The notes under the pieces are model-generated. The model was not told the DNA's origin. It worked only from the letters and a program-made list of their open reading frames with translations, and made no database searches. From positions 1-64,000 of the forward strand of contig JAJYHT010000035.1 of NCBI GenBank assembly GCA_021784595.1: 64,000 nucleotides of DNA, given 5' to 3'. The translations under genes and the position numbers were made by a program. Position 1 is the first letter of the stretch, and the number at the start of each line of letters is the position of its first letter. The stretch is from Bacillota bacterium (GTDB taxonomy: Bacteria > Bacillota > Sulfobacillia > Sulfobacillales > Sulfobacillaceae). This document shows, piece after piece, positions 48,932-62,923 of this stretch.

Positions 48932-48963
48932 CGGCAACACAGGGAAAGGTCGGAGAGAAATTG

Positions 48964-51480
48964 ATGGAACATGATATGGAATTTTCTTCTGGGATAAATC
49001 CAGGTACATCAGAGCTTAGTTGGAAAATATTTTTAGACCGGTATACGGTCAAAGATCCCTCTCGCAGTTTTGAGGTTGGCGACTTAGCAATTGCGTTAGT
49101 CGAAGCACATCCCAAGTGGCCTAAAAAAGACATTGGTATCGTGCGAGCATTGTTGCCAGACCGTTACCTGTCCATCGAACTAATTACTGGACCACAAAAA
49201 GGCGAGCTAATCGAGCGCCGCGTCGTGGAATGTGACCGCCCGACTGAGACCTCTATACAGCAAGTGGCCAAGCGCATTGCTTCAGGCGTAGCTTCGGTGG
49301 AGCCCGACGCGGTCCGCGACACCATTGAACAAGCGTTCGCCGAAGAAATCGCGGCCTTACGCTTTGTGCCGGGCGGCCGCATATGGGCGGGAGCTGGAAC
49401 TGATCAGCAACTTACATACTTCAACTGTTATGTGATTCCCAGCCCACGGGACAGTCGGGATGGCATTGTGGAAACTCTGGGCCAAATGATTGAAATCATG
49501 AGTCGGGGAGGGGGAGTGGGAATAAACATTTCCTCTTTAAGACCTGCGCGGGCAGCTGTGCGCGGTGTCAACGGACGGTCATCGGGCGCCGTGTCTTGGA
49601 TGGATTTATACTCTAGAGCCACCGGCTTAGTCGAACAGGGAGGCTCACGCCGAGGCGCATTGATGCTGCAGATAGAAGATTGGCATCCAGACTTATGGCG
49701 CTTTATTGAAGTGAAAAAGACTCCAGGCATGGTAGAAAATGCTAACATTAGCGTCCGCATTTCGGACGATTTTATGCAGGCCGTGAAATCCGACGGAGAT
49801 TGGAGCCTTGTGTTCCCTGACACCACGGATCCGGATTACGACGCGGTGTGGGACGGCAATCTTGAAACCTGGAAACAGCTAGGAAAGTCCGTTGTGGTCT
49901 ATGAAACCGTCAAAGCCCGAAAAATTTGGCACGACATCGTACAAGGAGCCTGGCAAGCCGCAGAACCGGGCATTGTGTTTGACCAAAGACATGAAAAGGA
50001 TTCAAATAGTTGGTACTTCAATCCACTAATCAGCACCAATCCGTGCGCTGAACAACCGTTGCCCGCTTGGGGCGTGTGTACCTTGGGCCACATTAATTTG
50101 GCAGCCTTTTACGATGACCAAAAAGATGATGTGGCCTGGGACCGATTGCGTACCACAGTGCAAATGGGCACGCGTTTTCTGGATGACATTGTAGATGCAA
50201 CGCCGTACTTTTTCCCACAGAACTACGACAATCAACAGAAGGAACGAAGAATCGGACTGGGCACCATGGGATTAGGAGAGCTTCTCATTCGCCTGCATTT
50301 GCGATATGGAAGTCCCTCGTCTATTGCCTTCATCGAAAAATTGTACCAATTTATCGCGGTAGAGGCCTATCAATATGATGTGCAGCTAGCGCAAGAAAAA
50401 GGCGCTTTCCCCGCTTTTCGCGCTGAACAATATTTACAGAGCGGCTTTATGCAGAAGATGCCTGAGTCGGTACGCAATCTCATAGGGCAATATGGCGTAC
50501 GAAACGTTACCATTCTCACCCAGGCCCCCACTGGCACAGTGGGCACCATGGTAGGTACCAGCACTGGTATTGAGCCCTTCTATGCCCTAACCTACTTTCG
50601 GCAGTCCCGACTGGGCTTTGATGAGCAATTTGTGCCTGTAGCAGCAGAATGGAAGGCCCAACATCCTCAAGAAGATCTGCCCGACTACTTCGTAGGTGCT
50701 ATGGATTTGACACCCGAAGAGCATGTCTATGTTCAAGCGGCCATCCAACGCTGGACAGACTCCAGCATATCCAAGACCGCCAATGCGCCTAGTACTTACA
50801 CCGTGGAAGATACCGCCCGACTATATGAACTGGCCTATGATTTAGGCTGCAAAGGCGTGACCATCTACCGAGACCAAAGCCGATCAGAGCAAGTTCTGCA
50901 TTTGGCCGAAGAGGACAAGAATCCCATCGCACCATCGAGTCCTGAGCGGACACAACCTGGGGTTGAGGTCTATCCGGTTCCCGCCACCGTTAATGGGCGC
51001 ACATTTCGCAAGGAAACACCTGCCGGCACTGCGCGTGTGGTGATCAATGAAGTGGCCGGCAACCCATTTGAAGTGTTCATGCTGTTAGGGCGCGCGGGAT
51101 CCGAAGTCCAATCCTTTATGGAATCCTTAGGCCGGGTTATCAGTTTGTATCTAAGGTCCCATGGCGACTTGACGCCGCGCCGACGTTTGGAATTAGTGGC
51201 TGAGCAGCTTAAAGGAATTGGTGGAGCCAATCAAATGGGATTTGGGTCCGGAAGGGTTCTCAGTGTAGTAGATGCCATAGGCCAATTGCTTGAAGGCTAT
51301 CTACACCAGGAGCTAAACAATGAAGTAGCTGCCACCATGCCAGAGATCGCATTCAACAACGTACCGATCCGAAAACCTCGTACCCCAGAGTTGGATCTTT
51401 GTCCCCAATGCGAGGCACCGACCTTAGTCTATGAGGAAGGGTGCCAGCATTGCACCTCGTGCGGCTATTCTAAGTGTTAG
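48964..51480 (+). CDS. nrdJ: Adenosylcobalamin-dependent (class II) ribonucleotide reductase
   Basis: An 838-residue class II reductase, oxygen-independent and needing vitamin B12. The catalytic core has STNPCAEQPLPAWGVCTLGH (Asn, Cys, Glu of the active site), TYFNCYVIPSPRDSRDGIV with the first redox cysteine, GGGVGINISSLRPARAAVRG and the QAPTGTVGTMVGTSTGIEPF loop. The C-terminus, after a ~170-residue extension, ends in a zinc-ribbon-like CPQCEAPTLVYEEGCQHCTS plus CGYSKC, which shuttles electrons. It starts 32 bases after nrdR. Reduces ribonucleotides to deoxyribonucleotides. Confidence 0.96.
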   Translation: MEHDMEFSSGINPGTSELSWKIFLDRYTVKDPSRSFEVGDLAIALVEAHPKWPKKDIGIVRALLPDRYLSIELITGPQKGELIERRVVECDRPTETSIQQVAKRIASGVASVEPDAVRDTIEQAFAEEIAALRFVPGGRIWAGAGTDQQLTYFNCYVIPSPRDSRDGIVETLGQMIEIMSRGGGVGINISSLRPARAAVRGVNGRSSGAVSWMDLYSRATGLVEQGGSRRGALMLQIEDWHPDLWRFIEVKKTPGMVENANISVRISDDFMQAVKSDGDWSLVFPDTTDPDYDAVWDGNLETWKQLGKSVVVYETVKARKIWHDIVQGAWQAAEPGIVFDQRHEKDSNSWYFNPLISTNPCAEQPLPAWGVCTLGHINLAAFYDDQKDDVAWDRLRTTVQMGTRFLDDIVDATPYFFPQNYDNQQKERRIGLGTMGLGELLIRLHLRYGSPSSIAFIEKLYQFIAVEAYQYDVQLAQEKGAFPAFRAEQYLQSGFMQKMPESVRNLIGQYGVRNVTILTQAPTGTVGTMVGTSTGIEPFYALTYFRQSRLGFDEQFVPVAAEWKAQHPQEDLPDYFVGAMDLTPEEHVYVQAAIQRWTDSSISKTANAPSTYTVEDTARLYELAYDLGCKGVTIYRDQSRSEQVLHLAEEDKNPIAPSSPERTQPGVEVYPVPATVNGRTFRKETPAGTARVVINEVAGNPFEVFMLLGRAGSEVQSFMESLGRVISLYLRSHGDLTPRRRLELVAEQLKGIGGANQMGFGSGRVLSVVDAIGQLLEGYLHQELNNEVAATMPEIAFNNVPIRKPRTPELDLCPQCEAPTLVYEEGCQHCTSCGYSKC

Positions 51481-51530
51481 GGGACCTCTAACTGAATTTC
51501 TTAGCGATCGTTCCTAACGGCTGACTAATC

Positions 51531-51571
51531 AAGGGATTCCAATACTACACAGGTAGTTTGGAATCCCTTTT
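51531..51571 (+). terminator. nrdJ terminator hairpin, overlapping the left end of the mobile element
   Basis: AAGGGATTCCAA (51531-51542) pairs perfectly with TTGGAATCCCTT (51558-51569); inside, ACTAC pairs with GTAGT around ACAG, with one unpaired T. TTTTA closes the structure. It is a strong intrinsic terminator, 50 bases behind nrdJ, and also contains the left repeat of the element described next. Confidence 0.8.
51540..51561 (+). repeat. Candidate left terminal inverted repeat
   Basis: Pairs with 61152-61173 on the opposite strand at 19/22 positions; mismatches at 51541, 51545 and 51555. Another ACCTGTGT occurs inward at 51586-51593, in inverted orientation, and may be an additional recombinase site. 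Confidence 0.5.
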
Positions 51572-51651
51572 AGTGTGTTATAAATACCTGTGTATATTTA
51601 TGGTTGTGATTTCCACAAACAGATGTTTCAATACTGTTGTGGGGTGAAATC

Positions 51652-52812
51652 ATGTATGTAAGCCTGGAATGGGTAACTCTGTCGGACGGTGTTCGATTTC
51701 GGACGATTTGCAGAAACGGTGTGCCCTGGATTGAGCCGACGCGCTTTCTCATGCGGTATGGACATTTGGGTATGGGATCCGCTCGCACAGTCGATACATA
51801 CGCTGAGCGCCTCCTGCCCTTCTTTCGCTGGGTGGCTCACGAACAACTTGCACTGTCCGACGTCGATCAACGCGGGTTTCATCGCTTTCAGCGCGATTTG
51901 GTGATTCGCGACACGGCGCACCCGTTGCTGTTAGCCAAGGGACCGAACTCCAGCCCGGTGACGGTCCGGTCGACGATCACCATGGCGGCGCGGTTTCTTG
52001 AGTGGTATGGGTCGGAGTATGCCATTTCCGCTAACCGAAGATTCGATTTTAGGAAGGGTCCTAAGACGGCTTACGGGGCTGCAGATCGTCGGCTTTCGGC
52101 ACGCACCGGGCTCCCACGCGCCAAGCGCAAGTTGCCAAAAGCGTTAACGGCGGCGCAAGTTGACCAGTGCCGCGAGTGGATTATGGATGCCTACGGCTTT
52201 GATCCGGCCCTGCAACTCCGGAATCGGGTAATCTTTGAACTGTTTGTCGGCGGGGCGATGCGCCTGGGGGCGCTGTTGGGACTGAGGAGTGAAAACATCT
52301 TTTGGACCGAACGGACTATCCTCGTCTCGTATACTGAGGCTGACTATCGTATGGCTTGGGGCACCAAACAACGTCATCATCGGGCCGCCAAAACCGGCGA
52401 ATACCTGATCGCCGTTGGATCGGACACCGTGCTCTGGCTGAACCGCTACTTCTTGGAAGTACGACCTGCGGCGGCGGTTCGCCTCAATCACGGTATCTTC
52501 TTCTGTGAACACCAGCCTGGCGGTTCCAAACATGGCGCCCCAATTCACTCTACTACCGTCCGATATCTGTTTCGGTCGTTGTCGAAGCCCCCGAGTGAAG
52601 GCGGTGTCGGCATCCATGTGACTCCTCACATGCTCCGCCATACGTGGGCTACGCTGGCACGCCAATCGGGCTTGGATATCAAGGTGATCCAGTACCAATT
52701 AGGCCATCAATCGCTACAGAGTACCGATCTATATTCACATGTAAGTCCCGAGTGGGTCCGGGACGCCTTGGATGCGTGGCACCAGCAGCGGGCCGGAAGA
52801 AGTAGCCGATGA
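51652..52812 (+). CDS. Tyrosine recombinase 1 (TnpA-like)
   Basis: A 386-residue tyrosine recombinase. The SAM-like core-binding domain covers residues ~30-135; the catalytic domain has GGAMRLGALLGLRSENIFW with arginine I, then HVTPHMLRHTWATLARQSGL with the His-x-x-Arg pair, QLGHQSLQSTDLYSHVSPEW with the second His and the nucleophilic tyrosine. All active-site residues are present. It cuts and joins DNA through a 3'-phosphotyrosine. Size and position match TnpA of Tn554. The ATG at 51652 has GGGGTGA upstream. Its end overlaps the next recombinase by ATGA. Confidence 0.9.
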   Translation: MYVSLEWVTLSDGVRFRTICRNGVPWIEPTRFLMRYGHLGMGSARTVDTYAERLLPFFRWVAHEQLALSDVDQRGFHRFQRDLVIRDTAHPLLLAKGPNSSPVTVRSTITMAARFLEWYGSEYAISANRRFDFRKGPKTAYGAADRRLSARTGLPRAKRKLPKALTAAQVDQCREWIMDAYGFDPALQLRNRVIFELFVGGAMRLGALLGLRSENIFWTERTILVSYTEADYRMAWGTKQRHHRAAKTGEYLIAVGSDTVLWLNRYFLEVRPAAAVRLNHGIFFCEHQPGGSKHGAPIHSTTVRYLFRSLSKPPSEGGVGIHVTPHMLRHTWATLARQSGLDIKVIQYQLGHQSLQSTDLYSHVSPEWVRDALDAWHQQRAGRSSR

Positions 52813-54350
52813 AGCGTATCCCCTGCCAAGGCGGCCAATTTGTTGAGGTGCTTGAGGACAACCAATGGCTTGTTCCCATGGGTGTGGGCCCCTTCACACG
52901 TAGATATAAAGTGGACCTCACGCGACTGCCGGTAGATGTTCGCGATTGGTGGCGAACTGTCTTCACTGAAGCGTTTCGCATGGATTCCTTGGCTCAGGTT
53001 CGCGGCATCTGGCATACGGCTCTCTGGTTCTATCGCTTTCACAAGGCCACGTCACGAGTGCCGACGGTGCGCTGGGATGAATGGCAGCGTGTCGACTGGG
53101 GGGCGTATGCGCACTGGCTAAATGAGCAGCAGGGCATACGCGGCCGTCGACCCTTATCCCTCGACTATCGCCGTGGACAATTCGGGTGGTTGGCAGCCGC
53201 CGCGCAACATGCTATTGACGTGGGACTGCTGGGAACGAGCGACGTCACGATTTCCCGCTTGAAATCGGTGTCCAGTCGGGTTTTTCGTGGAACCCAAGAC
53301 GTGTCGAACCAGCGATTGGTGCAGCGCGCGTTGTCCCACGAGCAGTGGGACGAGCTGGACAGGATATTGTCTGAGGAATGGTTCGCGTTGCAAGATCCGG
53401 GTCGAACACTCGACCCACCTTTTCGACTTAGCGTTGTAGTTGCGGCATGGCTGACGTTCCACCACGGGGTACGATCCGCTGAGATTAATCGTTTAACGGT
53501 TGACGACATTTTACCGGACGCGGATGGCCGGCACCATTTGAGAGTCCATGCCCCCAACAAGGCCGAGGACCTCATCCCGATTGACGCGATGACGCTGCAC
53601 ATGCTGGAGGTCTTAGTCGATGTGGGGGCGGAGTGCCGGGCAGACCTCGGCACTCGCCATCTGTTTGTGGGGCGCCGTCGAGGCCCACGCATCCTGGGAA
53701 CGACTGCCAACCCCGCTCAAAGCTTGACGTGGGGACTTCGCGACCTCATCCAGCGTTACGAGGCGGTCGAGTTGCCGAGTACTATTACGTTTCCGGATGG
53801 GCGCTTAACCTTCGGGACGCATCTCGCTTACGATATTGGCAATCGTGAAAAGGTGCGACAAATCATGCGCCACGAAAACGCGAGCACAACAGAGCGCTTC
53901 TATCGCGCACCGGATAAACTCCGCGTGGCCAAAGATATCTCCTCCGCTATCCGCAGTGAAGCGGTACGTCTCACGATGGCGTGCCAGCAACCAGTTATGA
54001 GCGTGGAGGAAAGGCCCGATCACCAGGAGGTACTGGCCCGAAATCCGGAGAACGCCCAGCTCGAATATGGCTCTTGCGGCTTGGATGTTCAGCGCCAAGG
54101 CACCTGCCGCATGGCTGTCCATTGCTTTGAGTGTCCGCTGTTGGTGCCGTGGGTCTCCAAACGCCACAACTTTGTATATGAACGAGATGTTTACGAGAAG
54201 AAGGCGGCGGAAGCGGCGAATGACCGGGACCGTGAGAACTATCTGCGGCATGCGGCATTGGCCGAGGCCCACATCCTGTTGATTGACCGGCGAAAGGAGG
54301 GGCCAAGTGGACCAATTGCACCAACCCGAAGCCGTAGACCGCGTCGATAG
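52809..54350 (+). CDS. Tyrosine recombinase 2 (middle enzyme of the trio)
   Basis: A 513-residue phage-integrase-type protein coupled by ATGA to the first recombinase. The catalytic domain shows TFHHGVRSAEINRLTVDDIL with arginine I, DGRLTFGTHLAYDIGNREK, whose Arg aligns with arginine II of its neighbour, and RQIMRHENASTTERFYRAPD with His and the likely Tyr. The His of the usual HxxR motif is replaced (PDGR), so the active site is atypical. A cysteine cluster, YGSCGLDVQRQGTCRMAVHC then FECPLLVPW, follows the catalytic domain, as in large Tn554-type recombinases. It may act as a partner for the others in a mixed synaptic complex. Its C-terminus overlaps the third recombinase gene by 44 bases. 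Confidence 0.85.
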   Translation: MKRIPCQGGQFVEVLEDNQWLVPMGVGPFTRRYKVDLTRLPVDVRDWWRTVFTEAFRMDSLAQVRGIWHTALWFYRFHKATSRVPTVRWDEWQRVDWGAYAHWLNEQQGIRGRRPLSLDYRRGQFGWLAAAAQHAIDVGLLGTSDVTISRLKSVSSRVFRGTQDVSNQRLVQRALSHEQWDELDRILSEEWFALQDPGRTLDPPFRLSVVVAAWLTFHHGVRSAEINRLTVDDILPDADGRHHLRVHAPNKAEDLIPIDAMTLHMLEVLVDVGAECRADLGTRHLFVGRRRGPRILGTTANPAQSLTWGLRDLIQRYEAVELPSTITFPDGRLTFGTHLAYDIGNREKVRQIMRHENASTTERFYRAPDKLRVAKDISSAIRSEAVRLTMACQQPVMSVEERPDHQEVLARNPENAQLEYGSCGLDVQRQGTCRMAVHCFECPLLVPWVSKRHNFVYERDVYEKKAAEAANDRDRENYLRHAALAEAHILLIDRRKEGPSGPIAPTRSRRPRR

Positions 54351-57300
54351 TGCATCTGCTGGGAGCCAACGACTACCTTTTCCATATGAAGAGGATCAGT
54401 GGGACTTGGCGTATCGCGCCACGACGGCAGCGACGCCAGGAGCCTCGATAGTCAATTTTGCCACCTTGCCAGAAACCTGGAAGGCCGATGTCAAAGCGTT
54501 TGTTGCAGACGGGGTGTTGGGTCGCAATTTAAGTAACGGATGGGCACAATCGACGATGTCGTGTCTTCGACTGTTGATCGACTTGGCTGTGGAACGGCAC
54601 GGACAGGAAACGGGACCGGAAGCTCTTAATCAACAGGATGCTCGGCGGGTTGAGGAGTACATCCGATCAAGCGGCCGCGTCCGTGGCCGCGGTACAATTC
54701 AAGTGATTGCCGAGTTCGCCGACTTTGTCCGATCTCATCGTCTTGGCGAGCCCAAGCGTTTTCGCCCTGACCCTCATGTGGTTCCGACGCAGCCTAAGCG
54801 TAAGACGTACAGCGAGGGTTGGGAACGTGTGATACCGGACGAGGTCAGCAGCGCTTTGTTGCAGGCGGTGAAAAGCCGCTGGGAGGTTCTCAAAGTCGAA
54901 AACCGGCCCGTTCGTGGAGGACGACTACGGAGTGAAGAACTTTATTTAGGTGTGGTCGTGTTGCTGCTGTTCTCAGGTCGACGTATCTCCGAACTTCTCT
55001 TGTTGCCCCGAGAGTGCCTGCGCGAACTCACAAGCCGGGAACTGGAGCAAACAGGACCGGGCATCTGGCTCGTTCACCATAATACCAAGACTGGCACGGG
55101 CCTTGATGAGGCATTTATACCGGAACCAGCGGCTGAGATGGTGCGGGACGCCGTGATGCGCATTCAAGTCCTCACGCAGGGCTTGGCCGCCATTAGTGGC
55201 CTAGACCTGTTGTTTATTACGAACGCGCAGGCCGGTGCCCTAAACGTCGGGACAATTCGCGGCGTCAGCAGTAATGCATTCAGGCTGTGGCTCAACGGTC
55301 GCATGACCGAGGATGGACAGGTCTTACGACCTGGGTTCATTCACAGGGCCGACATTCGATACATGGGCGAGTACTATCCAATCGACCCGCACCAGGGGCG
55401 TCACACGCTGGCTCATAAAGCGTATATGGGCGGTGCCGACTACGCGCAGGTCAGTGACCACCTGGGCCACCGGCGGACCCGTGCTGGGCTCAACCCGATG
55501 ACGGGCGTCTACATCCATGGGGAACAAGACGCGGTCCGCCAGATTCTCGACCATGCTGACCGCGGTCGGTTGGTGGGCAAGGCGGCCCCGCTTGTCGAAA
55601 ACCGATCTGCAGTAATCTCGGTGGAACCGAAGGATGTGGCTATCTACCAGGAACAAGGCATGCTGGTGTTGCCGACCCATTACGGTCACTGCTGCCTGCC
55701 AGCTGCGAGCGGTCCGTGCGTCACCGGAGATCCTTGCTGGATCGGGCCACAGGGAGACGGGTGCGACTATGCTCTCTATACACCGGAAAGTCAGGCGGCC
55801 CTAGAAAAAGACCGCGAGCTGTTGCAGCACCAAGTCACCGAGCTGGCAGATCGTGAGCCGCGTCATCCCCGCCTCGGACAGCTGCAAGCACGAGTCGCAC
55901 GGATTAATCAAGTGTTGCATGAGATCAAGGTAGCGATGGAGACCGACCCTACGGACTCGCTTCCCATGTTTTCGCCAAGAGCGGGTATCACTCCCAACGA
56001 ACCCGAACTGGTGCCGGGCCTTCCACCACCCGTTGGCCGGCGGTTGAAGTGGCGGCGACGGGAAGCAGCGTTAAAAAGTGGCGCCGGCTTTCCACCGTAT
56101 CGTGGTCCGCGACTTGAAGGAACGAGACATTCCGTTCCGGTGCTACTCCCCATGCCTACGGAATGGAGACAGCGTGCCGAGACTTTCCTGGCAGAATTGG
56201 AATCCGGCACCCATCCGTTGGCGCCGTCGATCTTTGCCAGGCGTCTTCGCATTCCGTTTCGTGCGTTCCTGCAAGCACCCGACATCATCGAACGGCTTCG
56301 CCGACACAATACCCGGTATGCACCGGTCGCAGAGGGCCGCATGGAGACGCGACTTGGTGAGTTGCGCGACCAGAACCTGCTTGCAAGCTATCGGGAATTT
56401 GCTGGGCTGCGCGGTGTCTCGCTGCGAACTCTGTTTTTGCGTCACCCCAATTGGTGCCGCCGGCTTGCTGAGCACAATAGGGCCATTCGTCGGAACCATA
56501 CCCGTTTGTTGGCTGAGCAACGGCTGGCGGAGTTGGAGGAATCTCAGACGCCCGAACCGTTGTGGATGTTCGCCAAGGTCCTTGGCCGGGACCGTAGTTG
56601 GCTCCGGCGGGAGTTGCCGGATGTGGTCAGTCGGTTGGTCCACCACAATCAATGCATGGGTCTTAAGGGTGCGCACATTCCGAAATCCGAGCGGATTGCG
56701 GCCATCCGACAAGAGTACGAGGGCGCTAAACGCTTAGGGCTCGCCTTATCCGCACAGGATTTGGCGGGCCGCTGCCACGTGTCCGTCGATACGATTCGTC
56801 GACATTGTCCAGAGATATTGCAGGAGATGCGGGGGCCATCCGCTCATGAGCGGCTTAACACAGCGTGGGATGTGTTGGAAAAATTGGACGAGGTGCTCGA
56901 CGTGGCACGGATCGCCCAGACAGCTCAGACGTCGATCAACTGGATAACGCAGCAAGGCGCGTTATGGCAAGAGAAAGTCGCGGAACATAATCGCAAGGTT
57001 CACATTCGGCAATTAGAACGCACGTGGGAACGTTATGCGGCTCAGAGTGAACGTTGGTCGGCTAAACGTTTTGCGGAGGAAGCGGGACTGACCTATGGCG
57101 AATTTCGCACCCAATTTCCTGGCTGGAACGCGCGGGTTGTCGCGGTTCCAAAGGACGATGCGACTCGCCGGCATTTGGAGCAGCTATTGGAAGAGGTCCG
57201 CATGAGCGACCAGATAGTTAGCCCCGTGACCTTAGCAAAGCGCGCCGACGTGACCTACACCACCCTTCTGCGCCACTATCCCGACATTTATGGGGCTCTC

Positions 57301-57489
57301 AGGGATCACGCAATGGAGTTTCGGCCGCGCATTGAGGCCTATCTCGCGGAGCTGGAATTAACGGACACACCGGTGTCGATGAGCGCCTTTTGCAGCCACT
57401 GTGGAATCGCCCATTATTCCCACTTACTAGCGTATTTTCCGAACATTGCGGAGCGGGTGCGTTCGCTCAAGAGCACCGGTAGGAGGTAG
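54307..57489 (+). CDS. Tyrosine recombinase 3 with a C-terminal array of about eight HTH-like repeats
   Basis: A 1060-residue protein. The catalytic part (residues ~45-430) has FSGRRISELLLLPRECL with arginine I, YPIDPHQGRHTLAHKAYMGG with HxxR, HLGHRRTRAGLNPMTGVYIH with His and Tyr; all residues are present. A Cys/His cluster, YGHCCLPAASGPCVTGDPCW then DGCDY, near residue 460, and a coiled coil follow. From residue ~616 to the end come about eight units of 50-55 residues with a common plan: a helix with RLxEL, a helix-turn-helix-like FARxxGVSxxTL, then a HxPxxxxRLxxHN ending (unit borders near 56152, 56335, 56497, 56680, 56844, 57000, 57157, 57319). Typical TnpB proteins lack this array. The GTG at 54307 is preferred to an upstream TTG because AAAGGAGGGG precedes it. 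Confidence 0.85.
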   Translation: MDQLHQPEAVDRVDSASAGSQRLPFPYEEDQWDLAYRATTAATPGASIVNFATLPETWKADVKAFVADGVLGRNLSNGWAQSTMSCLRLLIDLAVERHGQETGPEALNQQDARRVEEYIRSSGRVRGRGTIQVIAEFADFVRSHRLGEPKRFRPDPHVVPTQPKRKTYSEGWERVIPDEVSSALLQAVKSRWEVLKVENRPVRGGRLRSEELYLGVVVLLLFSGRRISELLLLPRECLRELTSRELEQTGPGIWLVHHNTKTGTGLDEAFIPEPAAEMVRDAVMRIQVLTQGLAAISGLDLLFITNAQAGALNVGTIRGVSSNAFRLWLNGRMTEDGQVLRPGFIHRADIRYMGEYYPIDPHQGRHTLAHKAYMGGADYAQVSDHLGHRRTRAGLNPMTGVYIHGEQDAVRQILDHADRGRLVGKAAPLVENRSAVISVEPKDVAIYQEQGMLVLPTHYGHCCLPAASGPCVTGDPCWIGPQGDGCDYALYTPESQAALEKDRELLQHQVTELADREPRHPRLGQLQARVARINQVLHEIKVAMETDPTDSLPMFSPRAGITPNEPELVPGLPPPVGRRLKWRRREAALKSGAGFPPYRGPRLEGTRHSVPVLLPMPTEWRQRAETFLAELESGTHPLAPSIFARRLRIPFRAFLQAPDIIERLRRHNTRYAPVAEGRMETRLGELRDQNLLASYREFAGLRGVSLRTLFLRHPNWCRRLAEHNRAIRRNHTRLLAEQRLAELEESQTPEPLWMFAKVLGRDRSWLRRELPDVVSRLVHHNQCMGLKGAHIPKSERIAAIRQEYEGAKRLGLALSAQDLAGRCHVSVDTIRRHCPEILQEMRGPSAHERLNTAWDVLEKLDEVLDVARIAQTAQTSINWITQQGALWQEKVAEHNRKVHIRQLERTWERYAAQSERWSAKRFAEEAGLTYGEFRTQFPGWNARVVAVPKDDATRRHLEQLLEEVRMSDQIVSPVTLAKRADVTYTTLLRHYPDIYGALRDHAMEFRPRIEAYLAELELTDTPVSMSAFCSHCGIAHYSHLLAYFPNIAERVRSLKSTGRR

Positions 57490-57491
57490 TC

Positions 57492-57983
57492 GTGGCCAAT
57501 AACCGAAAAATCAACGGCAAGACCACTGAACAAAGACTGCGCGAGGAGTTGCAACGAATAAAACAGACCCGCGAAGCGGTGACGGTGGCGGAGTTCGCAC
57601 GACGAGCGCGGGTGAGCTATGCGTCGCTGACCCATGACTATAGGGAAATTGCTGACGAGGTGCGTCGCCTTCGTGATGCGGGAAAACCGTTACCGAGTCC
57701 GTCACCAGTCACGTTGCCGCGGAAGCGGCATCCAGATCTCGTAGAGGCCAGTACCCTTATCGGACAGCTAAGGCAGCAAATTGTGAACCTAGCCAGTGAA
57801 GTATCAAATCTACAGGAAGATCGCGATCGATGGCAGAGGCGAGCTCAACGGCTGATGGTCGAGGAGAACCACAATGAGCTCTTACGAGGGATCATCGCGA
57901 CGCTGTCTAATGATTTGGCCTGCGAGACCGACCAGCGAATGCTGCTCCGCCTGATCGAGGAGGCCAAACCTCAGAATACCTAG
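57492..57983 (+). CDS. DUF6262/TnpC-like small protein
   Basis: A 163-residue protein beginning 2 bases after the third recombinase, with AGGAGG before a GTG start. The N-terminal ~55 residues (RLREELQRIKQTREAVTVAE, then FARRARVSYASLTHDYREIA) are one unit of the type repeated in the recombinase C-terminus. The C-terminal ~85 residues are a coiled coil (LIGQLRQQIVNLASEVSNLQ, EDRDRWQRRAQRLMVEE). This organisation matches TnpC of Tn554 and DUF6262 proteins, small accessory factors that influence transposition direction and efficiency in Tn554. Confidence 0.8.
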   Translation: MANNRKINGKTTEQRLREELQRIKQTREAVTVAEFARRARVSYASLTHDYREIADEVRRLRDAGKPLPSPSPVTLPRKRHPDLVEASTLIGQLRQQIVNLASEVSNLQEDRDRWQRRAQRLMVEENHNELLRGIIATLSNDLACETDQRMLLRLIEEAKPQNT

Positions 57984-58180
57984 ACGTGGTGGGTCGTCGG
58001 TGGATGGGACGAATCACCAACTTAGTGACCGGCAGTCTTTAGTCCTAACATCGATCGCCGGCATGAGTGGAAACATGCCCTTCACATCTCGACTTGCCAT
58101 TCGATGAAATGTAATGCTAACATCTTCTATAGATCTGCTATATTATGTGTATTATGTGCTATTTTGGAGGTGGTAACTTC

Positions 58181-59406
58181 GTGGATATGGATAAAGCAGC
58201 TACGATAGCCAGATTGAATCGGGTATTTAGCCCAAGTGCGCCAGTAGACGATGCTACCTTGTTCGCAGGACGTTCCCTTCAAATCAATCAGTTGTTGAGC
58301 TTGCGGGTCAGCGCGGTCAACACGCGATCATCTTTGGGGAACGCGGCGTCGGGAAGACTTCTCTGGCAAATATATTGTCCCCGGTACTTAGAAGCGCTGA
58401 TCTGCCGCATGTCGCTGTGCGGGTAAACTGCGATGCTTCTGATGATTTTCAGAGCATTTGGACCAAGGTTTTCGCGAATATCTCTATTACCATTGAAAAG
58501 AAGACGCCGGGATTTGTGCCACAGTCTCAATCGGTTGTCTATCCTCTCAGCGAACTAGCCAGTACCGCTTATTCTCCAGATGTCATAAGGCTCACCTTGT
58601 CCCGTCTTGCGGTACCCGTGGTCGTAATCATTGACGAGTTGGACCGTCTGCCTCGGCGTCGTTCCGACATCTCGCGCCTGTTTGCTGATACCGTCAAGAG
58701 CCTTTCTGATCACAGTTCGCCTGTCACGCTCGTGTTGGTTGGTGTAGCGGACTCTGTTAGCGATTTGCTGGCGGAACACCATTCGGTGGAACGTGCTCTT
58801 GTGCAGATCCACATGCCCCGTATGAGACACGCTGAGCTACAGGAAATTATCACTAAAGGGGCCACCGTCCTCGGTATCGGCCTGGATGACGATCTTCCTG
58901 AGGTTTTTGCCCAACTCTCTATGGGGTTCCCGTATTTTACGCATCTTCTTGCTCACCACACATTTTCGGAGGCTATCCAAAATGGCTCAGACAAAGTCAC
59001 GCTCGCGCACCTTGGGGCGGCCATGGTGATAGAGTTGAACAACGCTGAACACAGCGTTGTTCAACTCTATCACCGTGCGACCGATACAACGCGACCGGGA
59101 ACCCTCTTTGAACCGGTGCTATTGGCTTGCGCGCTATGCGACGTGGATGACATGGGATTTTTCACGGCGCGGGCCGTTCGCGATAAGCTAACAGCCGTCA
59201 CAAGACGCAAATATGATATCTCCAGCTTTTCGAGACACCTCAATGCGTTCTGCCATTCCCGGGGACCGATATTGGGGCAAAATGGCGTCCGACGGAAGTT
59301 CCGTTTTCTTAATCCGTTGATGCAGCCGTATATCATTCTCCGCGCCTTGTCCTACAATCTCCTAGATTTGAATGGGCTCATCTCGAACGCGAAGGAGTCC
59401 TCCTAA
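58181..59406 (+). pseudogene. AAA+ ATPase (Orc1/Cdc6-like), interrupted by a frameshift
   Basis: The first ~40 codons (DKAATIARLNRVFSPSAPVD ... LFAGRSLQINQLL) are in one frame; from about 58300 the homology continues in the -1 frame with GQRGQHAIIFGERGVGKTSL (Walker A), VPVVVIIDELDRLPRRR (Walker B) and a C-terminal winged-helix part ending KFRFLNPLMQPYIILRAL. One base is missing between about 58285 and 58306; I see no slippery heptamer that would justify programmed frameshifting. The GTG at 58181 has GGAGG 10 bases upstream; an extended -10 TGCTATATT lies at 58136-58144. A perfect 22-bp inverted repeat lies in the coding sequence at 59026-59073. If intact, it would be a cytoplasmic ATPase of about 408 residues, perhaps of a defence or DNA-binding complex with the next gene; a sequencing error is the simple alternative. 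Confidence 0.8.
59026..59073. repeat. Perfect 22-bp inverted repeat inside the AAA+ gene
   Basis: Bases 59026-59047 are exactly complementary to 59052-59073, with a 4-base loop (AACA). The segment encodes the VIELNNAEHSVVQLYHRA stretch, so both arms are translated. Confidence 0.95.
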
Positions 59407-59719
59407 CTGTCTCCGGTGCGGTGCCAGCGAACGAAAGTGGCACAAGGGGTGGCAAGATTCATGGAGCACATGATGCTATCCGAGGCGACGTCGCATGAAG
59501 AGGAGGATGTTAAGCACGGCGTCGCAATATGTCCGGTAGCATTCGGCGACGTTTTGGGTTAATCAGTCCGTCGCGATATTCTTGACGACGAAAAAGACAT
59601 CGTTTCTTCCCGATTATAGGCTTCTGCGATCCGGGGGACCGAACTGTGGGGGAGACGTGGGAAAACCATCAAACGTTGGTATTCATTTTACTATAGCAAT
59701 GAGGGAGGATTTTATTCTA

Positions 59720-61000
59720 ATGGTAAGCAAAGAGCAAATCGTACAATGGGTGGCGGACGGTGAAACTGACAATGTAGACTTCAAGGCCCCGATGCCCTTC
59801 AAGGAGTCCCATCGGGCGGAAATAGCCAAGGACATTATTGCGCTCTGTAATACCAAGGATGGAGGCGTCCTGTTGATCGGCGTGGAGGACGAGCCAGCGG
59901 TAATCGTTGGTGTCCCCGACATTGACGCAAGGACGTGGGAAGCGACGAAAATCCACGATTATTTGCGCCGACACGCCGATCCTGTTCCTGTTGTCCGCGT
60001 GGAAAAGGTGGATGTGGATGGTAGACGGGTGGTTGTAGTCATCGTAAACGAATTTTCCGGACAGCCAGTGGTTACCACACGGGATTCAGCCGCTTTCGTG
60101 GAGGCATCGGTTCTTATGAGGCAGGGTGTGTCATCCAAACCTATCGCGTCCGCAGATGCAATGCGCGACTTGTTGGAGCGAGCCATTCGACGGCGGGCGG
60201 ATCAGTTGGTCATAACTTTGGGTAAGGTTATCCGAGGCGACGATCCTGTTCCGCACCAATCCCCGAGTTACGACGCGGAGCTAGCTGTCATTGCGCCGTT
60301 GCGAGCGACGACGGCCGCAGATCGGAATGGTCAGTCGTTGGGTTGGTGGCAAGTCTCTGCGTTTCCTCAACATGAGGTTGCAGTGACGATGACCCAGGTC
60401 AAACGTCTAGAATTGTGGAGGACTGCCTCCGTGAACTTTCGCGGGGGAGGAATGCCGTATTGGGACCCCGCCCAGTGGTGTGTTCGCCACAGTGACGGCC
60501 AGACGCGACTCCAGTATCAGCTCGTTGCACCTCCGCGCCAAGAGGCGTGGGTGGCATTTGACTCTGGAGTATTTGGCATGGTGCGAGCGATGCCGGAAGA
60601 TTTATGGGGTCAAGTTGGGTGGGCAACTAATCCGAATACTCTAATGGACATTGTAGAGACCATTAGTTACTTAACCGAAATGCACCTGTTCTTCCTGAGA
60701 TACTTCCAAACGCTCGCTTACGACGGGGGAATTCGTATCGAGGTCCTGTTAGGCAATTTAGCGGGACGTTCGCTGACGTCGACTGAAGGGTTCTTTATGC
60801 CATCCCTAATGGGCGCCAGGTCGTACAGTGACACTTTCCAATACGCATACGAAGTGGACATGGCGGAAATGCCTTCCCGCGTTCTGCAACTTGTAGTCGG
60901 GACGGCCGTGCGGTTGTTTGAGTTGTTTAATTGGGATAACGAGGGGCTTATACAGCAAAAGGCGATAGAGCAGATCAGTCGTGCTGGATATCGGCTTTAA
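59720..61000 (+). CDS. AlbA_2 (Schlafen-type) DNA-binding domain protein
   Basis: A 426-residue protein. Residues ~10-130 form an AlbA_2 domain: ETDNVDFKAPMPFKESHRAE, IAKDIIALCNTKDGGVLLIG, then VEDEPAVIVGVPD and the hydrophobic strand RRVVVVIVNEFSGQPVV. Such domains bind nucleic acid and occur in Schlafen-like and defence-associated proteins. The C-terminal ~270 residues are unknown to me, with FRGGGMPYWDPAQWCVRHSD and helices near the end. The ATG at 59720 follows GAGGGAGG and places the domain at the N-terminus; the frame is open further upstream. It lies 313 bases behind the AAA+ gene, a gap in which I see only a short unassigned open frame. Last intact gene in the proposed element. Confidence 0.8.
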   Translation: MVSKEQIVQWVADGETDNVDFKAPMPFKESHRAEIAKDIIALCNTKDGGVLLIGVEDEPAVIVGVPDIDARTWEATKIHDYLRRHADPVPVVRVEKVDVDGRRVVVVIVNEFSGQPVVTTRDSAAFVEASVLMRQGVSSKPIASADAMRDLLERAIRRRADQLVITLGKVIRGDDPVPHQSPSYDAELAVIAPLRATTAADRNGQSLGWWQVSAFPQHEVAVTMTQVKRLELWRTASVNFRGGGMPYWDPAQWCVRHSDGQTRLQYQLVAPPRQEAWVAFDSGVFGMVRAMPEDLWGQVGWATNPNTLMDIVETISYLTEMHLFFLRYFQTLAYDGGIRIEVLLGNLAGRSLTSTEGFFMPSLMGARSYSDTFQYAYEVDMAEMPSRVLQLVVGTAVRLFELFNWDNEGLIQQKAIEQISRAGYRL

Positions 61001-61151
61001 AAGAGCGGGCCCCGAAAATCTGTTGCAGGGAAATTGAACCCGTCTAATGCCATAGAGGCCGCCCATCGATTTGTCGCGGAATCTGCCCGTAACGTCGACT
61101 ATTGTACCTGTGGAGTTTGCTGTGGAACGTTAACGGCATAGCGTAGACATG

Positions 61152-61173
61152 CCAAACAACCTGTGTATTATAG
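61152..61173 (-). repeat. Candidate right terminal inverted repeat
   Basis: The minus strand reads CTATAATACACAGGTTGTTT then GG, matching the left copy at 19/22. A related ACCTGTGG is present at 61105-61112, which may be a further binding site. Confidence 0.5.
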
Positions 61174-61256
61174 AATGATCACAACACCTAAGAAGTGCTA
61201 GGTCGGGTGACGCTGAACATCCTAAAGACAGCTCTATGACCGTTGTGTTTACTGTT

Positions 61257-61287
61257 AGAGGGATATGTGATGAACACATATCCCTCT
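61257..61287 (+). terminator. Strong hairpin outside the right end
   Basis: Perfect 13-bp arms AGAGGGATATGTG / CACATATCCCTCT with loop ATGAA, followed by TGTTATTT. It is 250 bases behind the AlbA_2 gene; it could end that transcript or belong to the original chromosome flank. Confidence 0.7.
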
Positions 61288-62431: not shown

Positions 62432-62923
62432 TGCAAATTATTCGTCGACGGCTATATAGGCGGATGGGATCTTCCAACTCATTGCACACTTACCAACAGT
62501 GACTTTACCACTGTCAATCAACATCTTCAAAGTCATGGACCCTCGTTTATCATCGAGCGATGTCAAGACGAACTTCAACGCATTGAGGAGGAGTTGGCAG
62601 AGCCCATTCGTTCCAATTTCTCTGTGGTCCCACGTTTTGCCCGACGGGCATGGACGTCGGAGGAGCGCGAGCACCTCATTGCCATACTCAACGAAGAATG
62701 GTGGACCTGGCGCGCGTGGCACGACCGTGGGACGGACCATGGTCGGACACCTGATCTGTTAACGGTTACCGCATCGTATCTGTGCTGGAAAGAAACCGTG
62801 CGGCCTTAAGAGATCAACGTCCTCACCGTTGCGGACGTAGACGTCGGCGTAGGGAGACTCCGATTACATGCGCCGAATAAGAATGAGTATCTTCTCGAAT
62901 TGCAAAGCCCTGCTTCGAACTGA
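62432..62923 (+). pseudogene. Decayed second copy of a middle-type tyrosine recombinase
   Basis: The open frame reads ...SVVPRFARRAWTSEEREHLI, AILNEEWWTWRAW, TASYLCWKETVRP, then TAA (62807-62809), then EINVLTVADVDVGVGRLRLH, APNKNEYLLEL in the same frame. It aligns with the intact middle recombinase at 53.3-53.6 kb: SHEQWDELDRILSEEW, AAWLTFHHGVRSAEINRLTV, GRHHLRVHAPNKAEDLIPI. The ochre codon replaces the alanine two residues behind catalytic arginine I. Both ends of the gene are missing. Only ~40% of residues agree, so it is from a different, older element and not a recent duplication. Confidence 0.8.

Follow-up and report, generated by a model that had tools for sequence, protein, structure and literature searches.

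A four-gene element of the Tn554/SE/GInt type appears to occupy positions 51477-61191 of the window (the whole 64-kb stretch of DNA analysed here), inserted in a site-specific manner at the final codons of nrdJ, and relatives stack further elements and cassettes at the same place. We put the probability of this reading at about 0.8. Judged from sequence comparison, the element is real, probably mobile and of a broad kind already known. The first-pass annotation had proposed a Tn554-like element directly behind nrdJ, with recombinase genes, a small gene and two cargo genes, and the presence of such an element of about 9.7 kb was borne out.

Target site and ends of the element

By comparison with Sulfobacillaceae relatives, the element attaches within the final codons of nrdJ, at a site made up of a half-site GGNTAYTC, a 6-bp spacer NAAGTG (Ser-Lys-Cys codons) and a half-site YTRRN. 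The features of the target and of the predicted ends are listed below.

48961-51480, plus strand: nrdJ (class II ribonucleotide reductase), the target gene; its last codons, TCT AAG TGT TAG, hold the putative attachment site
51471-51476, plus strand: 6-bp spacer TAAGTG of attL, read as the target's own spacer
51477-51486, plus strand: putative left terminus C, TTAGGGGACC, the first bases of the element, giving nrdJ its last base and stop (left-end model)
51531-51569, plus strand: hairpin resembling a terminator, borne by the element; most left ends have one about as far in
51546-51561, plus strand: outer left subterminal site, TACACAGGTAGTTTGG, the left repeat of the first-pass annotation (0 mismatches to its core)
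51586-51594, minus strand: second subterminal site, ACCTGTGTA on the plus strand, inverted relative to the first; kept in L019 and L022, with one change in L025
61106-61113, plus strand: inner right subterminal site, ACCTGTGG, read from the sequence and from the right ends of relatives
61152-61167, minus strand: outer right subterminal site, TACACAGGTTGTTTGG, the right repeat of the same annotation (0 mismatches to its core)
61182-61191, plus strand: putative right terminus C', CAACACCTAA, the end of the element (leave-one-out model, E 9.9e-9)
61192-61197, plus strand: 6-bp footprint GAAGTG of attR, under the model brought in with the element
61198-61202, plus strand: displaced nrdJ half-site and stop, CTAGG
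61257-61287, plus strand: displaced terminator-like hairpin of the subfamily II type, at the usual distance

The inverted repeat on which the earlier proposal was based is present, with agreement at 19/22 positions over the 22-mers and 15/16 in the core. The pair encloses the three recombinase genes, the small gene and the two cargo genes, and the left copy lies downstream of nrdJ within the apical half of the hairpin at 51531-51569. The accompanying claim that such a match is unlikely by chance holds when the stretch from the nrdJ stop to gene A is compared with the one after the last cargo gene (157 bp x 300 bp), for which no inverted 16-mer pair of at least 15/16 was found in 300 shuffles, but not for the window as a whole, of which 13 of 100 shuffles gave at least two matches at up to three mismatches. 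Because of this latter result, support for the repeat comes from relatives and not from the repeat alone. The motif pair indeed recurs at both ends of related elements: on the left, TACACAGGT lies in the hairpin tip with ACCTGTGTA about 40 bp further in, and on the right there are two copies of the ACCTGTG type.

As the ends of the element, however, the repeats had to be given up. The left-end model, built from 11 other sequences with the window excluded, matches 51472-51582 (E 3e-30), and a right-end model from which the window's copy was left out has its best match in the 64 kb at 61102-61201 (E 9.9e-9). Since both models match past the repeats, the ends were placed further out, at 51477 and 61191, giving a predicted element of 9,715 bp. 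The repeats thereby become subterminal, lying 69 bp in from the left end and 24 bp in from the right. The right terminus in relatives is ACACCTAA (subfamily I) or CGACTTAA-like (subfamily II), followed by six bases, and C and C' have in common only the short inverted core TTAGG (subfamily I).

Terminators had likewise been suggested as the insertion targets. The junction was instead found in the last codons of nrdJ, and the hairpin is borne by the element and re-terminates nrdJ. The element supplies the last base, the stop codon and the terminator hairpin of nrdJ, the old nrdJ end being displaced to 61198. The tail from the stop codon to recombinase A travels: in the related genome G033, copies of some 114 bp of this tail, 85% identical, lie 9.2 and 18.2 kb from nrdJ. 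Because the left end recurs inside this array together with its hairpin, the hairpin is assigned to the element and not to the target. At the displaced nrdJ end, GAAGTGCTAGGT is identical to the nrdJ end of G001 and G030. The displaced tail of the window resembles other nrdJ tails over only its first 12-16 bases or so, and a longer similarity, to the hairpin of G016, has a score of 31, hardly above the highest value from 50 shuffles (30).

The two junctions form an imperfect direct repeat with 9/11 matches, TAAGTGTTAGG at 51471 and GAAGTGCTAGG at 61192. The placement of the spacer is a reading of the alignment, in which six bases line up with NAAGTG and N is the wobble base of the serine codon. 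A spacer made up of the six bases before TGYT was also considered; because CACCT is almost always followed by AA, the spacer was shifted two bases along, to NAAGTG. Searches of open PubMed Central papers gave no description of nrdJ as an integration site or element target.

The recombinase operon and the cargo genes

The predicted element carries the following genes.

51637-52812, plus strand: gene A, tyrosine recombinase of 391 aa, TnpA/IntA/GinA-like, with all catalytic residues
52809-54350, plus strand: gene B, second tyrosine recombinase of 513 aa, box-II His missing, no counterpart in Tn554
54283-57489, plus strand: gene C, large TnpB-like tyrosine recombinase of 1068 aa, catalytic residues complete, with seven D-like C-terminal HTH modules
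57492-57983, plus strand: gene D, 163 aa, weak match to DUF6262 (TnpC/GinD-like)
58145-59406, plus strand: cargo 1, AAA/nSTAND-type ATPase in two overlapping frames (58145-58426 and 58375-59406)
59582-61000, plus strand: cargo 2, SLFN AlbA_2 protein of 472 aa, matching the candidate defence family PDC-S50

Catalytic residues were compared in sequences of A (six), B (four) and C (four); B keeps its two Arg, its second His and its Tyr. Profiles of A, C and D matched the proteins of the control trio L195, respectively TnpA-like (1.4e-21), TnpB-like (8.5e-11) and TnpC-like (4.5e-6). The control trios were found through DUF6262 in the phylum, and we take them to be of Tn554 type from gene order and size. 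The DUF6262 match of D itself (0.002) stayed below the cut-off of that family, and NCBIfam integron-integrase matches to A were far below theirs.

A profile of the HTH module of D alone detected the C proteins of G033 (4.4e-23) and of the window (3.9e-6). After profile iteration, the number of such modules was seven for the C proteins of the window and G014, five for that of G033 and four for that of G021, and the control TnpBs showed none. The seven modules in C of the window, homologous to a separate TnpC-like protein, occupy residues about 650-1065. AlphaFold predicted repeated short-helix units in C from about 626 to 1065, with pLDDT mostly 65-90 and confidence mainly in the C-terminal modules; the prediction for B was poor (mean pLDDT 57.4).

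Genuine relatives of B were found in 8/34 genomes of the family. In 7/8 of these the gene shares a contig with nrdJ and lies on its downstream side, and in the eighth, G014, the copy is cut by the contig start. No genuine B was detected in 120 genomes of the class outside the family, where many matches weaker than 1e-10 were judged to be ordinary Xer-type recombinases, and B had no match in 72,556 plasmid records. An initial scan of genome contigs with C gave no match, and among 398 genomes of the phylum C was found in its own genome only, together with two weak matches (E 5e-5 and 8e-5).

Cargo 1 is probably frameshifted, since it is read in two overlapping frames; the split lies near the expected nucleotide-binding loop, and the gene may be a pseudogene or contain a sequencing error. 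No conjugation or phage genes were seen within the element.

Junctions in relatives

The relatives fetched by NrdJ all belong to the Sulfobacillaceae, many of them from acid environments, and include G001, of the same genus as the window. A match to nrdJ was obtained in 31/34 genomes of the family, and the downstream sequence was read in 30. When the nrdJ tails were searched by Blast against each other's downstream regions, internal copies were found that begin at the last codons of nrdJ: the tail of G021 about 1.2 kb downstream in G001 (84% over 114 bp), that of G032 at about 17.2 kb in G033 (92% over 115 bp), that of G002 at about 0.4 kb in G031 (93% over 115 bp; this copy is degenerate) and at about 1.0 kb in G026 (91% over 112 bp), and that of G027 at 19.6 kb in G033 (87% over 85 bp). 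Most of these internal copies are preceded by the conserved right terminus and six bases. The sequence that follows the spacer at right junctions of G001, G026, G031 and G033 is thus the nrdJ tail of other genomes, and the breakpoints lie elsewhere than at the inverted repeats, an outcome that the first-pass annotation had itself named as evidence against its model.

The spacers on the two sides differ in behaviour. On the nrdJ side, NAA(G/A)TG was found in 28/30 nrdJ copies and GCGGTG in the other 2. The 13 right junctions taken as seeds carry GAAGTG (4), CAAGTG (1), AAAGTG (1), GCTCTG (3), CCTGTG (2), TATATG (1) and AAAAGG (1), giving an nrdJ-like NAAGTG footprint at 6/13 and a different one at 7/13. 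Deviating junctions occur in G011, in G031 and, with AAAAGG, in G000, the window's own genome.

No empty site of the same species was present among the genomes compared; within the genus, wherever the nrdJ tail could be read, element ends or cassettes were present. The best candidate for an empty site is G027: behind its nrdJ stands the 90-bp tail also found after the last clear junction of G033, and a gene common to G015 and G016 starts about 0.8 kb further on. Since G027 and G033 match over only 90 bp, we regard this empty site as likely and not more. G015/G016 and G012 were also considered, and the comparison gave no conclusive empty site. Between nrdJ and the shared downstream genes, G015 holds amidohydrolase-like and transporter-like regions and G016 a tryptophan-synthase-like gene (all named by eye), so that variation at the nrdJ site has other sources too. 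The 3' end of nrdJ in G003 is broken by an insert resembling the antitoxin region of G002, perhaps through a chimaeric assembly.

Tandem arrays and toxin-antitoxin cassettes

The end of nrdJ is a hotspot in the relatives, with two element subfamilies and tandem recombinase-free toxin-antitoxin cassettes of about 0.9 kb. The distance from nrdJ to a conserved convergent gene of 901 aa is about 16.1 kb in G000, 6.4 kb in G011, 5.2 kb in G025, 4.2 kb in G015, 3.6 kb in G016 and 0.6 kb in G012. Recombinase-free units of about 0.8-1.0 kb are contained in the arrays of G000, G026, G033 and others, and several of the small units hold a Phd/YefM-PIN pair or a DUF433-DUF5615 pair. The Phd/YefM-PIN unit is 85-93% identical, nearly from junction to junction, in G000, G026, G032 and G033, while the nrdJ ends of the same genomes are only 72-76% identical over the aligned parts. 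Further full or partial copies of this unit were detected in G028, G007, G030 (contig C145) and G013 (contig C242), with recognisable junctions in the latter two, and gene-only matches elsewhere.

The array in the window's own genome continues beyond the element.

62630-62914, plus strand: degraded gene B of subfamily II, interrupted by a stop and left by an earlier element of this array

Further along the contig (C45), as far as about 67.1 kb and before the gene of 901 aa, remains of an earlier subfamily-II element and two toxin-antitoxin cassettes were seen, one of the latter at C45:65227-66194. The subfamily-II element of G033 carries in addition a single tyrosine recombinase of 299 aa (L019 at about 6.3-7.2 kb; +6.6 to +7.5 kb in G033), accompanied by a PIN-type gene and an acetyltransferase-like gene (labels by eye).

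Proposed mechanism and alternative readings

SEs and Tn554-type elements are reported to take along 6 or 7 bp from the left flank of the donor; in the new copy these bases appear at the right end, and those of the target remain on the left (PMC10214605, PMC12486829). By a similar route, recombinases A, B and C with the helper D would bind the terminal and subterminal sites, and the element would circularise together with 6 bp from its left flank. Upon insertion of the circle, the target's own 6 bp would stay beside nrdJ and the brought-in 6 bp would become the right footprint, by which the Ser-Lys-Cys codons of nrdJ would stay intact at every insertion. The small cassettes may be moved in trans. 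Variable right spacers with constant nrdJ-side spacers are as this model predicts; the asymmetry is support and not proof, because selection on the C-terminal Cys tail of NrdJ could yield the same pattern.

Phage- and ICE-type elements typically target the 3' end of a conserved gene and restore that end. An ordinary cut-and-paste integrative element of this type, both att spacers of which came from the same crossover and later drifted, would account for the direct repeat TAAGTGTTAGG/GAAGTGCTAGG (9/11), but such an origin is rather improbable: the right spacers differ from NAAGTG at 7/13 junctions and the nrdJ-side spacers do not (selection on NrdJ could also conserve the left one), the trio with its TnpC-like gene matches the Tn554-type controls, and the element is devoid of recognised conjugation or phage genes. 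The boundaries first proposed, TACACAGGTwGTTTGG repeats bracketing 9.6 kb inserted into the nrdJ terminator, are very unlikely in spite of the confirmed repeat and of the motif pairs at both ends of relatives' elements, because conservation passes both repeats, to the last codons of nrdJ on the left and ACACCTAA on the right, the hairpin moves with the element, and cassettes without recombinases show the same outer junctions.

Hardly any weight is given to an old immobile operon, linked to nrdJ and inherited vertically, even though the linkage is seen in several genera of the family and many copies are degraded. Against such descent stand the higher identity of the cassettes than of the nrdJ ends in the same genomes, the tandem arrays with differing spacers, and gene A of the window, for which G033 (74% over 337 aa) offers a closer match than the same-genus G001 does with its short remnant (66% over 47 aa).

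Comparison with known systems

The site-specific four-gene element favoured here resembles three described groups. With the Tn554 family (also Tn552-II; PMC12486829) it has in common TnpA-, TnpB- and TnpC-like proteins in the same order and a unique target; homologues of all three, the set that defines the Tn554 type, lie in one operon. It differs in the third recombinase B (52809-54350), Tn554 having exactly two tyrosine recombinases, in the seven TnpC-like HTH modules on its TnpB-like C, in its target nrdJ, in its terminator-bearing left end and in the recombinase-free toxin-antitoxin cassettes.

The strand-biased circularizing integrative elements (SEs; PMC10214605) have a similar apparent order of a catalytic, a degenerate and a large catalytic recombinase followed by a small protein, and a 6-bp fingerprint and footprint rule that the nrdJ elements would share. 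SEs were reported only from Gammaproteobacteria, whereas the host of the window belongs to the Bacillota. In the SE order of intA, catalytically dead tfp, large intB and srap, B would correspond to tfp by gene order; it lacks the box-II His but keeps Arg, Arg, His and Tyr.

GInt elements, compared here by architecture (PMC5385486), likewise have a four-gene operon at the left end, cargo and a short right end, lie between imperfect direct repeats (10-11 nt in GInt, 9/11 in the window) and are reported to insert at the 3' end of a gene. The arrangement by which a GInt is recognised, a ginABCD-type operon with cargo and a short 3' end between imperfect direct repeats, was found in the window. The degenerate member differs: in the same source GinC is without the first catalytic Arg and GinA and GinB are complete, while in the window the missing residue is the box-II His of B, the first Arg being present in C.

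Membership in the RIT group, defined by three recombinases of 315-410 aa, all with the catalytic Tyr, 34-bp terminal inverted repeats and no fourth gene, was rejected for recombinases of 391, 513 and 1068 aa accompanied by gene D.

Integron arrays are built by tyrosine recombinases that accumulate small toxin-antitoxin cassettes in tandem at a fixed site, and the nrdJ arrays resemble them in this respect. In the nrdJ arrays, by contrast, the recombinases belong to the trio kind, their source being full-size members of the array, and the cassettes carry the same ends as those elements.

Implications

Both the boundaries and the target of the element are corrected by this analysis, which points to four-gene transposition of the Tn554/SE/GInt type in acidophilic Bacillota, with a target gene end that has to be preserved. 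For the target, the domain layout and the tandem toxin-antitoxin cassette arrays, no description was found in the open PubMed Central literature searched. The arrays are a natural series of junctions, in which the rule of the brought-in 6 bp, so far known from a few laboratory events, becomes testable by comparison alone.

More tentatively, and at somewhat less than even odds, the 3' end of nrdJ in Sulfobacillaceae may serve as an integron-like acquisition platform. The full-size four-gene elements would act as the source of recombinases in trans for toxin-antitoxin mini-cassettes that have none, and these, each with its own nrdJ end and terminator, would accrete beside the gene. The 6-bp footprints would record the donor site, a strand-biased mechanism would spare the essential codons, and the chain of TnpC-like beads on C would read the repeated subterminal sites. 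The tandem recombinase-free toxin-antitoxin cassettes suggest a second route to ordered cassette arrays besides integrons.
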